IMG/VR virus record: IMGVR_UViG_3300026268_000226 | Location: 1 to 24,520 of that record | Direction: 5' to 3' (one strand) | Length of the DNA: 24,520 bases | Origin: a virus | Part shown: positions 327 to 7,366 of the stretch, in pieces | Numbering within the stretch: the first letter of the stretch is position 1 | How the letters are laid out: each line of letters begins with the position of its first letter | The notes under the pieces: model-generated | What the model was told of the DNA's origin: nothing | Seen by the model: only the letters and a program-made list of their open reading frames with translations | Database searches by the model: none | Made by a program: the position numbers and the translations under genes

Positions 327-409
327 ATAAAATGTTAATAGAATATCTTTATATTTTTGTGTTTGCTATTATAATATTGGCATTAGCATACTGTACGGTT
401 AGCATATAA
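323..409 (+). CDS. Small membrane peptide, 28 residues
   Basis: A short frame with its own late promoter (295-302) and a good AGGAG site encodes a 28-residue peptide: a polar start (MNKMLIEY) followed by one hydrophobic helix rich in Ile, Phe, Leu and Ala, ending TVSI. It is predicted to be a single-pass inner-membrane peptide. Its stop codon lies inside the next copy of the promoter box. Function is unknown; a short lysis-related or membrane-remodelling peptide is possible, but nothing in the sequence shows that. The main support for its being real is the dedicated promoter and ribosome binding site identical to those of the following gene. Confidence 0.5.
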   Translation: MNKMLIEYLYIFVFAIIILALAYCTVSI

Positions 410-412
410 ATA
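405..412 (+). promoter_or_regulatory. T4-type late promoter box
   Basis: Exact TATAAATA overlapping the stop codon of the 28-residue ORF. It drives the gene at 433 and probably the chain of overlapping genes down to 5282, because no further exact late box is seen on the plus strand until 5345. Confidence 0.65.
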
Positions 413-1503: not shown

Positions 1504-1670
1504 ACGGAGTACAAGTGTTATGGCATTTATTAACAAACTGGGAAGAAGGAAAGGGATTATATTTTATAATGGCGTTAGCTATGATTGCAATATGTTTTTC
1601 TATATGGACAGATAGACAATTTGACAATGAACATAAAACTAAACCAGATGAATATAATTATTGGATATAA
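1488..1670 (+). CDS. Single-pass membrane protein, 60 residues
   Basis: The ATG is preceded by GAGGAG at 1473-1478. The protein has an aromatic N-terminal part, one clear transmembrane helix of roughly 20 residues (YFIMALAMIAICFSIW, about residues 25-40) and a charged C-terminal tail. The family is not recognised. The stop codon shares bases with the start of the next gene (TAATG), so it is part of the coupled operon running into the oxygenase and heme genes. Confidence 0.6.
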   Translation: MYDEMNGVQVLWHLLTNWEEGKGLYFIMALAMIAICFSIWTDRQFDNEHKTKPDEYNYWI

Positions 1671-2410
1671 TGACAGATAAAAAATATACTGATGTTAAAG
1701 AAATAGATATAATGAGAGGTGGCAATTTAAATTTTGGTCCTTTTGTATCAAACTATAAAGTTCACGAAGAATTATTAGACGGACTTTTACAAAGAGGTGA
1801 AAAGTGTAGACCTGGTTCAGGCAATAGTAACTTGGCAGGTATAATGGAAGACCAAAGAGGATATTCGCAAGAAGATAAGAAATGGTTTATAGAACACTTC
1901 CAACCTTACATAACTAGTTATGTTGAAGACTCAGCAAGATATAGTGGTCAAGTAATGGATTATAGAGATGGTAAATTTTCAACTTCATTTACTCTTATAG
2001 ATTTATGGATTAATTATATGAAAGAGAACGAACAAAATCCAGAACACTCACACGGTGGTATGTTATCTTGGGTTATCTTTTTAAAAGTTCCTGATTTAGA
2101 AGAAGAACGAAAAAATTATAAAGGTAAGAGTTATGGACCAGGTGGAGTTACGTTTCATTATGGTGAACAGCAAAATCCAACTTGGGCACAACACTCATAT
2201 GGTTATTTTCCAGAAGTTGCTGGTATGTGGATATTTCCTGCACAATTAAGACATCACGTAATGTCTTATAAAACACCAGGCGAAAGAATAAGTGTGTCAG
2301 GTAATTTATATTTTAATCCTCCTAATGTACCTTCAAAGACATATGAAGCAGAAAACTTACAAAGACAAAATATGGACTTTGCAAGAAAAGTAGCGTCTGA
2401 AATAAAGTAA
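1670..2410 (+). CDS. Fe(II)/2-oxoglutarate-dependent oxygenase-like protein
   Basis: A 246-residue protein with the double-stranded beta-helix signature of 2OG-Fe(II) oxygenases: EHSHGGMLSWVIFLKVP around residues 125-141 (His126 and His128 as candidate iron ligands), GGVTFHYG near 158-165, GMWIFPAQLRHHV at 185-197 (distal His195/His196) and GERISVSGNLYF at 204-215 (Arg206 as candidate 2-oxoglutarate anchor). The layout matches the putative 2OG oxygenase families common in T4-like marine phages. The substrate is unknown. I chose the ATG at 1670, which overlaps the previous stop as TAATG, over an in-frame TTG nine bases upstream. It is the first gene of the heme cassette and overlaps hemF by one base. 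Confidence 0.75.
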   Translation: MTDKKYTDVKEIDIMRGGNLNFGPFVSNYKVHEELLDGLLQRGEKCRPGSGNSNLAGIMEDQRGYSQEDKKWFIEHFQPYITSYVEDSARYSGQVMDYRDGKFSTSFTLIDLWINYMKENEQNPEHSHGGMLSWVIFLKVPDLEEERKNYKGKSYGPGGVTFHYGEQQNPTWAQHSYGYFPEVAGMWIFPAQLRHHVMSYKTPGERISVSGNLYFNPPNVPSKTYEAENLQRQNMDFARKVASEIK

Positions 2411-3189
2411 TGAAACAAGAATCGTTGCAATGGTTTATGGAGTTGCAAAAGTTAATTTGTCAAACACTAGAAGATTTAGAACCTAAAGCAAAATTTAAAG
2501 ATAACAAATGGAAGTTTGGTAACTTTAAAACAATTAAAGGCGATGTGATTGAAAAGGGAGGTGTCGCCTTTAGTAATGTCATAGGTAAGTTTCCAAAAGA
2601 CTTCGCAAAAGAAATCCCTGGTACAAAACATAGTAGAAACTTCTGGTCAACAGGAGTATCAGTAGTATTACATCCAAAGAATCCTAAAGTACCTGCAATA
2701 CATTTTAATACAAGATATATTGAAACAGAAAAAAGTTGGTTTGGTGGTGGTGCAGATATGACACCGTGTTTGAAAGATGATATAGAAAGAACTTTATGGC
2801 ATTACAGATTAAAACAATTATGTGATAGACATAATAAACTTTATTACAAAACATATAAGAAATGGTGTGATGAGTATTTTTATTTACCCCATAGAGAAGA
2901 AATAAGAGGTGTAGGTGGTATCTTCTTTGATTACAAATATGGTGATAAACATTTTGAATTTGTTAAAGATGTTGGTAGAACCTTTTGTCAATTACTTAAA
3001 GAGATTATAACACCAAAGATGAAATTAAAATATACGAAGCAAGATAAGTATACACAACTATTAAAACGTGGACGATACGTTGAATTTAATTTAATGTATG
3101 ATAGAGGAACAAAATTTGGATTACAAAGTGGAGGTAATCCTAAAGCAATATTAATGTCTATGCCACCAGGTGCGATATGGGAAGAATAA
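2410..3189 (+). CDS. hemF: Oxygen-dependent coproporphyrinogen III oxidase (HemF)
   Basis: Converts coproporphyrinogen III to protoporphyrinogen IX with O2, a late step of heme synthesis. The HemF family pattern is clear along the whole 259 residues: NFWSTGVSVVLHP (78-89), HFNTRY (98-103), WFGGGADMTP (110-119), KKWCDEYFYLPHREEIRGVG (150-169), GRYVEFNLMYDRGTKFGLQS (221-240) and ILMSMPPG (247-254). The four conserved His residues (His88, His98, His131, His161) are present in the expected spacing. The protein ends right after the conserved ILMSMPP-x4-WE segment and lacks the roughly 30-40 residue C-terminal tail of bacterial HemF; no remnant of that tail is seen in other frames beyond the stop. 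It overlaps its neighbours by 1 and 13 bases, so it is translated within the operon. Cytosolic enzyme. Confidence 0.93.
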   Translation: MKQESLQWFMELQKLICQTLEDLEPKAKFKDNKWKFGNFKTIKGDVIEKGGVAFSNVIGKFPKDFAKEIPGTKHSRNFWSTGVSVVLHPKNPKVPAIHFNTRYIETEKSWFGGGADMTPCLKDDIERTLWHYRLKQLCDRHNKLYYKTYKKWCDEYFYLPHREEIRGVGGIFFDYKYGDKHFEFVKDVGRTFCQLLKEIITPKMKLKYTKQDKYTQLLKRGRYVEFNLMYDRGTKFGLQSGGNPKAILMSMPPGAIWEE

Positions 3190-4016
3190 TATCTTGTTCA
3201 GCAAGAAAACAATGGGATGTACATATCAAAGCATTTTTAGATAGACACATACAACACGCAGAAGAATACTCTAACTTTTCTTTTAGATATGAAGATATAG
3301 ATTCTGTATTTGGGCAAACTGAATATAATTGTCCTTTATATGGTGGACGTCCTGCACAAATGCCAGAAATGTTTAAAAAAGATATTGAATGGATTTATGA
3401 TAAGGGTATTGGTCTTAAACTTACTTTACAGAATAAATTTATAACAGATGAGAAGTATAAAGAAAGTAAACCGTTTTTAAAAGAATATCATAGAAAAGGA
3501 AATGCAGTTATTACAGCAACTGATAAGTTAGCTGAATATATTAGAAATGATTTTCCTGATTATAAAATAGAAGCAAGTTGCATACAAGATATTACAGATA
3601 ATGAACATTATGAAAAAGTTGTTGCAAAGAATTTATATGATACGATTGTTTTACCTATACATAGTAATGATGATTTAAAATTTATAGAAAGTATTAAACG
3701 AAAAGATTTATTAAGATTGTTTATGAATATAGAGTGTTCTTATAATTGTCCTAGTAAAGTTTGTTATGGTACAACTTCTAAAATAAATAGAAGTGAAAGA
3801 AAAGGAATGAGATGTAGTTTAATTCATTTAGGTATGGAACGTACTTTTTATAATGATGATATAACGTGGAGCCAATTTTATTTTGATTTACCTAAATATG
3901 AACAAATGGGTATATCTAAATTTAAATTAGTAGCACCACACGAAGAACAACAACGAACAGCATTGATGTATAAAAGAAACCATCAAATGTTAGCAAATTC
4001 AGCAAAAGGAGATTGA
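3177..4016 (+). CDS. Peptidase U32-like protein with four-Cys cluster
   Basis: A 279-residue soluble protein. Strand-turn segments (GLKLTLQNKFIT at 79-90, NAVITATDKLAEYI at 109-122, YDTIVLPIHSNDDLKFIESI at 154-173, LLRLFMNIECSYNCP at 178-192) suggest a TIM-like barrel resembling the U32 peptidase family. That family includes iron-sulfur proteins acting in ubiquinone hydroxylation (UbiU/UbiV) and RNA hydroxylation. Cys187, Cys191, Cys196 and Cys213 form a plausible Fe-S or zinc site; Cys52 and Cys135 lie outside it. I recognise the family only moderately, and no catalytic role can be read off. It starts inside the end of hemF and ends one base before the next ATG. Its position between hemF and hemB suggests a related redox or tetrapyrrole role. 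Confidence 0.5.
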   Translation: MGRIISCSARKQWDVHIKAFLDRHIQHAEEYSNFSFRYEDIDSVFGQTEYNCPLYGGRPAQMPEMFKKDIEWIYDKGIGLKLTLQNKFITDEKYKESKPFLKEYHRKGNAVITATDKLAEYIRNDFPDYKIEASCIQDITDNEHYEKVVAKNLYDTIVLPIHSNDDLKFIESIKRKDLLRLFMNIECSYNCPSKVCYGTTSKINRSERKGMRCSLIHLGMERTFYNDDITWSQFYFDLPKYEQMGISKFKLVAPHEEQQRTALMYKRNHQMLANSAKGD

Positions 4017-4017
4017 T

Positions 4018-4434
4018 ATGAATTTAAAAAAATATTTTTATATGACAATAGGATTTATTTGTATAGGACTTGCCTATATAGGTGTAGTAACTCCAGGTAT
4101 ACCTTTCAGTATATTTTTAGTGATTGCCGCTTGGGCATTTGCTAAATCATCTAAAAAATGGCACGATTGGTTATACAATCACAAATACTTTGGACCGTTT
4201 CTAACAGGTTGGACAAAGTATAAAGTATTTCCTCAATACGCAAAATATTCAATGGTACTTGTTATGGCAAGTTCATTAGCAATACTTTGGCATAGTACAC
4301 ATAATCTTAATGCATTATTATGGTCAAGTGGTTTTATGTTTCTATGTGCTGTATGGGCGTGGAGATATCCTGCAACAAAAGAAATTGCAGATAAAAGAAT
4401 TGCAGACGGCAAAAGAGTTGCTTGGTTAAAATGA
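4018..4434 (+). CDS. DUF454 (YbaN-like) inner-membrane protein
   Basis: A 138-residue membrane protein. The N-terminal half has the DUF454 signature: a hydrophobic segment with GLAYIGVVTPGIPFSIFLVI (about 17-36), then AAWAFAKSSKKWHDWLYNHK (37-56) and FGPFLTGW (58-65), corresponding to the family's LPxxPF, FAxSS and WLxxHxxFGP motifs. Two further hydrophobic segments lie at about 78-92 and 103-118. Family members such as E. coli YbaN have no established biochemical function. A strong ribosome binding site (AAAGGAG at 4006-4012) precedes the ATG. The stop overlaps the hemB start (ATGA). Finding it between heme enzymes hints at a role linked to porphyrin or iron at the membrane, which is inference. 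Confidence 0.8.
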   Translation: MNLKKYFYMTIGFICIGLAYIGVVTPGIPFSIFLVIAAWAFAKSSKKWHDWLYNHKYFGPFLTGWTKYKVFPQYAKYSMVLVMASSLAILWHSTHNLNALLWSSGFMFLCAVWAWRYPATKEIADKRIADGKRVAWLK

Positions 4435-5282
4435 GATTAATTCAACCGATATTCGCTAGTTATTCTACAAGAGAAACTGGACTTGGAGAAGATAATAAAA
4501 TCTTTAATGCGTGGAAAGAAGTTAATGAACGTGTTAAGAAAGATATGGATTTAGGTGTAAAAGAATTTCTTTTATTTTATATACCAGAATTTAAGTTAGG
4601 AGAGAAAGCAGATACACATAGAGGCAACGAAGGTATTGATTCACATAAGTTTGACCAAGTATGTGTAACTGCTGCTAGTCTTTCAAGAGATATACAACCA
4701 AAATGTAGATTGATTGTAGATTTATGTTTATGTTCATACACGCAAGATGGACATTGTTGTATTATAGGTGACCAAGAAAAAACAGATAAATTATTAGCAC
4801 AAACAGCAAAAGATATTTACACAGCGTCAGGTGCTACAATAGCACCAAGTGATTGTCAAGATAATACAGTTAAGAATATTAAATCTTTAAAAGATGGTAA
4901 TATAGAAGTTATGAGTTATAGTACAAAATTTCGTTCTACATTTTATAGAGATTGGAGAAGTGCTATGAAGATAGCAAAAGGTATTCATAGACCATATCAA
5001 TTAGATGTTGATGATAGAGAAGGTGCAATTGCAAGGTCAGTAAAATATTCAAATGATGGTGCAGATGAATTAATGGTTAAACCAGGTATGACAAGTTTAG
5101 ACTTAATTAAACCTATTAAAGAAGCAACTGGTAAACCTTGTGGTGCATATCAAACATCTGGAGAATGGTTAGGTATAGGTGCTCCTGGTAGTTTAGAAGA
5201 AACATATCAAATATTCAAAAGAGCAGGTTGTGATTATATGATTACTTACGGAGCTAGACGTTTAGCAAAAAATCACTCATAA
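4431..5282 (+). CDS. hemB: Porphobilinogen synthase / 5-aminolevulinate dehydratase (HemB)
   Basis: Condenses two 5-aminolevulinate molecules into porphobilinogen, the first common step of tetrapyrrole synthesis. Catalytic features are intact: VDLCLCSYTQDGHC (96-109) with the three zinc-binding Cys (99, 101, 109); IAPSDCQD (137-144); MSYSTKFRSTFY (161-172) with substrate Lys166; ADELMVKPGMTSLD (211-224) with Schiff-base Lys217; and CGAYQTSGEW (237-246). The family normally has about 320-340 residues; this one has 283 and begins almost at the barrel, so the N-terminal arm that holds the usual octamer together appears to be missing. I chose the ATG at 4431, overlapping the DUF454 stop as ATGA, over an in-frame TTG at 4422. 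Last gene of the coupled heme cassette. Confidence 0.9.
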   Translation: MRLIQPIFASYSTRETGLGEDNKIFNAWKEVNERVKKDMDLGVKEFLLFYIPEFKLGEKADTHRGNEGIDSHKFDQVCVTAASLSRDIQPKCRLIVDLCLCSYTQDGHCCIIGDQEKTDKLLAQTAKDIYTASGATIAPSDCQDNTVKNIKSLKDGNIEVMSYSTKFRSTFYRDWRSAMKIAKGIHRPYQLDVDDREGAIARSVKYSNDGADELMVKPGMTSLDLIKPIKEATGKPCGAYQTSGEWLGIGAPGSLEETYQIFKRAGCDYMITYGARRLAKNHS

Positions 5283-5344: not shown

Positions 5345-5352
5345 TATAAATA
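5345..5352 (+). promoter_or_regulatory. T4-type late promoter box
   Basis: Exact TATAAATA, 17 bases before the ATG at 5369, with a strong AGGAGG ribosome binding site in between (5358-5363). It drives the two-gene unit at 5369-6161 independently of the heme operon. Confidence 0.65.
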
Positions 5353-5368
5353 TCCATAGGAGGTAATA

Positions 5369-5584
5369 ATGAAATCAATTGATAAGTTACCTAAATTTAA
5401 AAAAGGAAAATATAGTTTTTGCAGGGAAAAACGCTGTGAACTACAAGAGAAGTTGCGTGATGGAGACCCAGCTCACCAGGAATGTTGGTTATGTATTGTA
5501 GACCATTATTCCAAAAGTCCAAAACTTTCTGATTTAAAGAATACAAATCAAATAATACAATTACGAAAGACCAAAAATGAGTAA
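5369..5584 (+). CDS. Small Cys-containing protein, 71 residues
   Basis: A basic 71-residue protein with four Cys arranged as CREKRC (18 and 23) and CWLC (39 and 42), which could form a zinc or metal site. It has a dedicated late promoter and a near-perfect ribosome binding site, so it is probably highly expressed late in infection. It overlaps the following oxygenase gene by eight bases. The family is not recognised. The CxxC pair resembles a zinc-knuckle half, but the spacing C-x4-C-x15-C-x2-C matches nothing I can name. Confidence 0.65.
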   Translation: MKSIDKLPKFKKGKYSFCREKRCELQEKLRDGDPAHQECWLCIVDHYSKSPKLSDLKNTNQIIQLRKTKNE

Positions 5585-6161
5585 ATACTACCAAACGGTA
5601 GAAGACCTAGATGTTAATTTAGAGGAGCTAATAGCTTGTTATGAACATTTTAAAGAATCAAAAGGTTTTTCTACAGACAATCCTGATAATATAGACTTCA
5701 ACGCAATATGCGTGAATAGAATACCTGGTGATCCAAATTCTTTAGTTGGACCTAAAGTAAGAGGTCTATATTGGACCTATCCAGATGATTCAGGTAAAGA
5801 AGAACAAAGACTTGAAAAAGTTGAAGAAGAGAAATACACCCAAATTTGTCCAGAATTTAAAGGCACGTATGTTGAGACTCTTTACGATTATTTAACATTA
5901 AGATTTAAGTTAGGTCGTGTTCGTTTTCTAATGAAACCACCTAGAAGTTGTTTAAGTTGGCACCGTGATCCAGAAAAGAGATTACATATACCAATGATAA
6001 CAAATGGTGGTAGTAGAATGGTTATTGAAGGCGATAGTTTTCATATGCCAGCTAATGGAAATGGTTATATTACCGATAATACGAAATATCACAACTTTTT
6101 TAATGGTGGTGAGACTCAAAGAGTTCACCTAGTTGCGACTTTATTAGATTCTATTGATTAG
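5577..6161 (+). CDS. Aspartyl/asparaginyl beta-hydroxylase-like oxygenase
   Basis: A 194-residue protein whose C-terminal half has the Asp/Asn beta-hydroxylase cupin motifs: LSWHRDPEKRLHIPMITNGG (126-145) with the iron-binding pair His129-x-Asp131, the conserved RxHIP segment, distal His172 (KYHNFFNGGE) and 2-oxoglutarate-binding Arg182 in RVHLVATL. Such enzymes use Fe(II), O2 and 2-oxoglutarate to hydroxylate Asp or Asn side chains, and related proteins occur in T4-like marine phages. The substrate is unknown here. It overlaps the upstream Cys-containing gene and converges with the minus-strand gene at 6158 (stops overlap by four bases). Confidence 0.75.
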   Translation: MSKYYQTVEDLDVNLEELIACYEHFKESKGFSTDNPDNIDFNAICVNRIPGDPNSLVGPKVRGLYWTYPDDSGKEEQRLEKVEEEKYTQICPEFKGTYVETLYDYLTLRFKLGRVRFLMKPPRSCLSWHRDPEKRLHIPMITNGGSRMVIEGDSFHMPANGNGYITDNTKYHNFFNGGETQRVHLVATLLDSID

Positions 6162-6991: not shown

Positions 6992-7366
6992 ATGTCAAAT
7001 ATTGATACATTAATAGAACAATTAGGAAAATTAACAGTAGTTGAAGCAGGTGAATTAGCAAAAAAATTAGAGAAAACTTGGAATTTAGATTTAGCTAAAT
7101 TACAAGGTAGCGCAGTTGCACCTGTAGAAGAAAAAGCAGAAGCAAGTTTATTCAATGTTAATTTAATTGGATTTGACGCAGGTAAGAAAATCGGTGTCAT
7201 TAAAGCAATTAGAGCTTTTAAAGATATGGGATTACTTGAAGCAAAGAATTTTGTAGAAGAATGCATAGAGAAACCTAAAGAAATTAAATCAGACCTAGAT
7301 AAAACAGAAGCAGAAAAAATTAAAGCAGACATAGAGTCCGCTGGAGGAAAGGTAGAGTTAAAATGA
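6992..7366 (+). CDS. rplL: Ribosomal protein bL12 (L7/L12) homologue
   Basis: A 124-residue protein matching bacterial bL12 over its full length. Residues 1-30 give the N-terminal dimerisation and stalk-binding helices (LIEQLGKLTVVEAGELAKKL), 31-52 the flexible Ala/Glu-rich hinge, and 53-124 the C-terminal translation-factor-binding domain, with KKIGVIKAIRA (65-75), GLLEAKNFVEE (80-90) and EAEKIKADIESAGGKVELK (106-124). In cells bL12 forms the ribosomal stalk that recruits and activates translation GTPases. Length is normal and both functional domains are intact, so it could replace the host protein on ribosomes. Virus-encoded bL12 has been reported from aquatic phages. AGGA at 6980-6983 is the ribosome binding site. 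Confidence 0.92.
   Translation: MSNIDTLIEQLGKLTVVEAGELAKKLEKTWNLDLAKLQGSAVAPVEEKAEASLFNVNLIGFDAGKKIGVIKAIRAFKDMGLLEAKNFVEECIEKPKEIKSDLDKTEAEKIKADIESAGGKVELK

Follow-up and report, generated by a model that had tools for sequence, protein, structure and literature searches.

Phage tetrapyrrole genes are known mainly at the ends of the pathway, in ALA synthesis, in ferrochelatase and in the conversion of heme to bilins. Cassettes of AlaS, HemO and a bilin reductase (FDBR) have been published in pelagimyophages, together with the activity of phage AlaS and HemO (PMC11480375). These alaS-hemO-pcyA/X cassettes, from pelagimyophages and freshwater phages, resemble the locus described here in placing tetrapyrrole enzymes in T4-like SAR11-type phages, but they act in ALA formation and heme breakdown, and hemB and hemF are unnamed in the main text of that paper. 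Two heme-pathway genes, for coproporphyrinogen oxidase and porphobilinogen deaminase, were also reported as unique genes of the uncultured 'deep ecotype' pelagimyophage PMP-MAVG-4 (PMC7029224), although in one sentence, with HemB unnamed and with the enzymes, their origin and the cassette not analysed. In pelagipodophages, ferrochelatase adjoins a 2OG-Fe(II) oxygenase (PMC9599517), again joining a heme-pathway gene to a 2OG oxygenase in SAR11 phages, but in another phage family and at another pathway step. An earlier note on the present DNA knew of no hemB-hemF pair in a phage. The searchable literature, which includes few subscription papers, yielded no phage HemB, but the novelty was overstated in view of PMC7029224 and PMC11480375. 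The same literature describes neither the arm-less zinc type of HemB nor recurrent multi-gene modules, nor a link of DUF454 or Asp_Arg_Hydrox genes to tetrapyrroles. Matches to HemB and HemF in the GenBank phage collection were rejected as contaminating bacterial sequence (Listeria, Acinetobacter and similar).

A heme gene chain beside T4-like virion genes

The stretch of DNA analysed here (the window) comes from IMG/VR, as a linear virus record that is 24,520 bases long and has a G+C content of ~31%. A T4-like baseplate and tail region begins at 7.4 kb, directly downstream of the heme region and in the same strand run, and comprises genes for a PAAR protein, gp25, gp6, Hc2/gp7-like and gp8-like proteins as well as tail genes. 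The window gp6 is 72% identical to that of Pelagibacter phage Mosig and 56% to that of HTVC008M, marking the source as a pelagimyophage. Judged by its sequence, the window is from a T4-like phage of SAR11, a bacterium of the ocean, and is most closely related to Pelagibacter phages; the virion genes and this kinship bear out the claim of the earlier note that the DNA is phage and not bacterial chromosome. Ahead of the virion region lie genes for a 2OG oxygenase, HemF, ORF279, DUF454, HemB, an Asp_Arg_Hydrox protein and bL12, with the following features:

405..412, plus strand: putative T4-type late promoter, TATAAATA, 28 nt 5' of orf433; the nearest box upstream of the heme genes
1670..2410, plus strand: 2OG-Fe(II) oxygenase, first in the overlapping chain (PF13759, 1.5e-12; phrog_81, 3.6e-27)
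2410..3189, plus strand: hemF, oxygen-dependent coproporphyrinogen III oxidase, 259 aa (PF01218, 7.5e-89; PRK05330; four His)
3177..4016, plus strand: ORF279, conserved phage protein (no Pfam or PDB match; weak fold model)
4018..4434, plus strand: DUF454 (YbaN-type) small protein (PF04304, 1.2e-26)
4431..5282, plus strand: hemB, short arm-less zinc(Cys)-type porphobilinogen synthase, 283 aa (PF00490, 4.1e-50; AF2 model)
5345..5352, plus strand: next putative late promoter, TATAAATA, just 3' of hemB, bounding the heme transcription unit
5577..6161, plus strand: Asp_Arg_Hydrox-type 2OG oxygenase (PF05118, 9e-8; 50-53% identity to the SAR11 hemB neighbour)

Between 1670 and 5282, five genes adjoin or overlap, through a TAATG overlap (2OG oxygenase/hemF), a 13-nt overlap (hemF/ORF279), a 1-nt gap (ORF279/DUF454) and an ATGA overlap (DUF454/hemB). 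This chain agrees with the proposal that hemF and hemB belong to one operon, with two further genes, ORF279 and DUF454, standing between them. The plus strand of the window has seven copies of TATAAATA (at 295, 405, 5345, 6630, 7771, 12740 and 14783), and six of them are followed by an annotated start codon at a distance of 15-30 nt, a placement found for 0 of the 55 other permutations of its letters. By analogy with T4 late promoters we take TATAAATA to be a T4-like late promoter box; the heme genes would then belong to a unit that starts at 405, with the next box at 5345, and would be expressed late. Scans of the window found no enrichment of the cyanophage-like CTAAATA motif and only chance-level matches to sigma-70 promoters. 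The phage-encoded ribosomal protein bL12 (6992-7366) keeps its position beside the heme island in relatives; a bL12 gene is known from some pelagimyophages.

HemF and its origin

The gene at 2410-3189 encodes HemF and is predicted to be catalytically active. Its product matches PF01218 over the full length (297.7 bits against a cut-off of 31.8; E 7.5e-89) and exceeds the cut-off of the NCBIfam equivalog PRK05330 (328.3 versus 297 bits). Four catalytic histidines had been claimed for it, and His88, His98, His131 and His161 are indeed invariant in an alignment of nine viral-contig HemFs; presumably these are the metal histidines of the E. coli enzyme. Relative to sister phages, dN/dS is 0.30 for hemF and 0.15-0.27 for hemB, and both genes are under purifying selection.

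In the HemF tree, the window copy is nested within Pelagibacteraceae HemFs (support 98/91), separate from a larger viral HemF clade. A constraint joining it to the other viral HemFs was rejected (AU test p 4.6e-5), which indicates capture from SAR11 relatives at least twice. The phage HemF shares 63-67% identity with one SAR11 subgroup and sits inside the SAR11 clade, but the phage copies form a branch of their own. On this phylogeny, the window HemF is a capture from SAR11 independent of other phage HemFs.

HemB and its relatives

The gene at 4431-5282 encodes a divergent but clear porphobilinogen synthase (PBGS), which its residues and modelled fold predict to be catalytic. It matches PF00490 (E 4.1e-50; 171 bits against a cut-off of 24.6) but falls under the NCBIfam PRK09283 equivalog cut-off (160 versus 297 bits), placing it in a divergent PBGS subfamily. 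The best start is the ATG at 4431, in the ATGA overlap with the upstream stop, and the resulting 283-aa product matches the Lys166/Lys217 numbering given earlier. In a 286-aa numbering, all 14 phage HemBs compared share Cys102/104/112, Lys169 and Lys220, which correspond in alignment to the Zn triad and Schiff-base lysines of E. coli PBGS, so that the Cys triad and two lysines described before are in place. An AF2 model built from phage sequences alone (pLDDT 76) had only PBGS among its best Foldseek matches (best E 3e-17, TM 0.79).

Compared with E. coli and human zinc-type PBGS, the phage enzyme has the same fold, Cys triad and two active-site lysines, but is 283 aa long, lacks the N-terminal arm and is ~28-30% identical. 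The arm helps to hold the octamer together in known PBGS and belongs to the usual form of the enzyme rather than to its chemistry. SAR11 HemB has that usual form, with 330 aa, an N-terminal arm and an Ala-Asp-Asp (Mg-type) metal site. The arm motif of SAR11 HemBs is missing from the phage HemBs examined and from those of the genomes G026 and G032, and the phage metal site is Cys-Cys-Cys in 25 of 26 copies, the remaining copy being unscored by the motif test. In the tree, the 26 phage HemBs all fall in one clade (100/98). Its sister branch consists of the short Cys-type HemBs from two genomes, G026 and G032, in a set of 147 from the SAR11 order. This marks an old phage lineage and no recent copy from the usual host; phage HemB is of a type almost never used by the sampled SAR11 genomes.

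G026 and G032 are small genomes in which the short Cys-type gene is the sole HemB match. In G026 (L170, L360) an arm-less zinc-type HemB lies in a compact operon, hemCD (fused)-hemB-hemE-hemH-hemF, and alaS lies close upstream on the opposite strand. As the sole HemB match and part of a heme operon, the short G026 gene indicates that a cell can probably manage with an arm-less HemB.

Tetrapyrrole modules across viral contigs

The hemF and hemB pair recurs in eight further independent contigs, all of which also carry hemC, and is thus no assembly accident. In close relatives the island lies between orf1488 and bL12, with the 2OG oxygenase, hemF, ORF279 and DUF454 variably present around hemB. 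In 18 contigs hemB is followed by Asp_Arg_Hydrox; other contigs, among them all eight with hemF, have hemC in this position, and two relatives (L212, L221) carry hemE-hemB-hemC. One of the eight sisters, the 177-kb G561, combines hemF-hemB-hemC with alaS, hemO and a bilin reductase (FDBR), so that the published type of alaS-hemO-pcyA/X cassette (PMC11480375) co-occurs with the genes described here, and T4 neck and gp15 genes lie beside its tetrapyrrole genes.

Other arrangements are found further afield. Another viral lineage has hemF-hemC-hemE-hemB in 12 contigs, one of them a 107-kb contig with alaS and hemO as well, and many other viral contigs carry hemE-hemF-hemC or hemF-hemC-hemE, among them G593 with hemE-hemF-hemC, where a gp6 homologue and a phage DNA polymerase are also encoded. 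Virion genes were absent from the ORFs sampled in the 107-kb contig and in an 82-kb contig, both IMG/VR-classed and with replication-type genes present. The HemC tree has long branches and few bacteria. Over all viral contigs the combined set comprises AlaS, HemB, HemC, HemE, HemF, HemJ, HemO and bilin reductase.

For HemD, PF02602 gave no convincing match in viral contigs, in a search that likewise failed to pick up the part of the G026 HemC fusion interpreted as HemD. Ferrochelatase matches came from two contigs only, one (L048) probably a bacterial fragment and the other with its match cut off at the contig end. Two viral contigs, G588 and G589 (L394), carry hemJ (protoporphyrinogen oxidase) ~1.5 kb from hemO, and hemE-hemF-hemC as well.

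A proposed role in heme supply

We consider it probable that the window holds one cassette of a modular tetrapyrrole-supply island in T4-like SAR11 phages, which would sustain heme during infection. HemB and HemF, whose genes are probably transcribed from a late phage promoter along with those for the 2OG oxygenase, ORF279 and DUF454, would respectively turn two 5-aminolevulinates into porphobilinogen and decarboxylate coproporphyrinogen III to protoporphyrinogen IX. The phage would add extra copies of several pathway enzymes, in sets that differ between lineages, and host HemD and HemH would fill the remaining gaps. Flux would thereby rise and heme production be kept up in the infected, nutrient-limited host, to the benefit of the phage; some phages may make bilin too, via HemO and bilin reductase. 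As an AMG module, these genes lie beside virion genes in a phage genome, recur and are under purifying selection. Counted against such an island are the missing N-terminal arm of HemB and its score under the equivalog cut-off; the window also covers just 24.5 kb of the genome, and the AlaS and HemO evidence comes from relatives of the window phage. With relatives that have as much as most of the heme pathway, these phages seem to carry their own heme-making kit into infected cells, and the middle of the heme pathway now also appears as phage-carried, in several viral lineages. SAR11 are among the commonest marine bacteria, so phage-made heme would bear on the iron and energy use of infected cells.

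Heme might instead serve mainly as substrate for phage HemO and bilin reductase, yielding phycoerythrobilin-type pigments. Both HemO and FDBR are encoded by the 177-kb hemF-hemB-hemC phage and by 27-30 of 80 viral alaS loci, and HemO also by the 107-kb hemF-hemC-hemE-hemB contig. Many hem-bearing contigs, however, show no HemO, though most are fragments, and we know of no bilin-binding partner, leaving this use of heme rather unlikely as the main one.

The earlier note suggested relief of two bottlenecks; on such a reading, the phage would supply just the two limiting steps of host heme synthesis, for cytochromes and respiration. HemF and HemB are indeed the only pathway enzymes visible within the window, but the window is a fragment, and in close sisters the island also includes hemC or hemE. 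With alaS, hemO and FDBR also joining in the same or linked loci of sisters, the selected unit is more likely whole-pathway flux, and the varied sets across lineages better fit whole-pathway supply from interchangeable parts. We therefore regard two singled-out steps as unlikely, whereas the broader proposal of the note, an effect on heme or porphyrin supply, is plausible from gene content.

It is highly improbable that the arm-less HemB has ceased to be a PBGS and acts as an ALA or metal binder, or as a decoy on host tetrapyrrole control: the absent arm, ~30% identity to host HemB and long branch would suit such a protein, but the triad, both lysines and other conserved motifs are intact, dN/dS is 0.15-0.27, and the nearest bacterial kin are the only HemB matches of G026 and G032, probably functional enzymes. 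That the window is a misclassified piece of bacterial chromosome, as its SAR11-derived HemF might hint, is already refuted and has next to no probability, given baseplate and tail genes in the strand run of the heme genes and the recurrence of this island in no fewer than 20 phage contigs that have gp25/gp6.

ALA formation in SAR11

Pelagibacteraceae are stated to use the Shemin route only (PMC11480375). Of 58 SAR11-order genomes, nearly all with HemB, five gave an ALA-synthase match at the cut-off of the model and none did so for glutamyl-tRNA reductase, a scarcity that, as far as profile searches go, is at odds with that statement. G040, a 1.38-Mb single-contig SAR11 genome, has HemB, HemC, HemE, HemF and HemH and gave no significant AlaS or GtrR match, though 5 kb of it is masked, where one gene could hide.

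Two AlaS-positive SAR11-order genomes have alaS between hemB and rpiB-glyA. In other SAR11 genomes this slot is filled by an Asp_Arg_Hydrox gene, which adjoins hemB in 22 of 30 SAR11-type hemB loci compared and also in G040, and which shares 50-53% identity with the phage copy. The SAR11 gene in this slot has a homologue among the genes reported as core in pelagimyophages. Within the flanks read, a close Asp_Arg_Hydrox copy was found in none of 80 viral alaS loci and none of five large AlaS contigs, and alaS in none of 80 loci of the Asp_Arg_Hydrox gene; nor was a copy present in the 31% read of the AlaS-positive genome G034.

As a tentative possibility, the Asp_Arg_Hydrox-type gene after hemB (5577-6161) is a candidate for an unrecognised ALA-forming enzyme. 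In most sampled SAR11 genomes, alaS and glutamyl-tRNA reductase are undetectable and a homologue occupies the alaS slot, and phages of these hosts carry it beside hemB, whereas the AlaS-bearing phage contigs examined have no close copy. Against this, the subgroup G003-G006 has no Asp_Arg_Hydrox gene next to hemB, and tests found no alaS in G003-G006 or G009; to our knowledge, no ALA-forming chemistry is described for this type of gene. Were the candidate correct, window phages would bring ALA formation along with HemB and HemF. The comparison exposes an apparent gap in the ALA formation of most SAR11, with a concrete candidate gene.

ORF279 and DUF454

ORF279 has six invariant Cys and is strongly conserved in phages, with no match in Pfam or PDB and no bacterial relatives among genome contigs or the 147 SAR11-order genomes. 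Its AF2 model has a pLDDT of 57, and the best fold-search E was 0.006. We rejected a UbiU/UbiV-like peptidase U32 (hhalign probability <1% against E. coli UbiU/UbiV) and a missing heme enzyme as identities for ORF279: no profile matched, and the protein also stands beside non-heme genes in other phages. Relatives of ORF279 (L021, L059-L067) lie beside heme genes in some phages and beside nrdA/nrdB or thyX-like genes, named by eye, in others. Homologues of DUF454 (YbaN family) occur in 44 of 80 viral alaS loci (L558-L637), mostly directly downstream of alaS, and this neighbourhood ties the family to tetrapyrrole genes.
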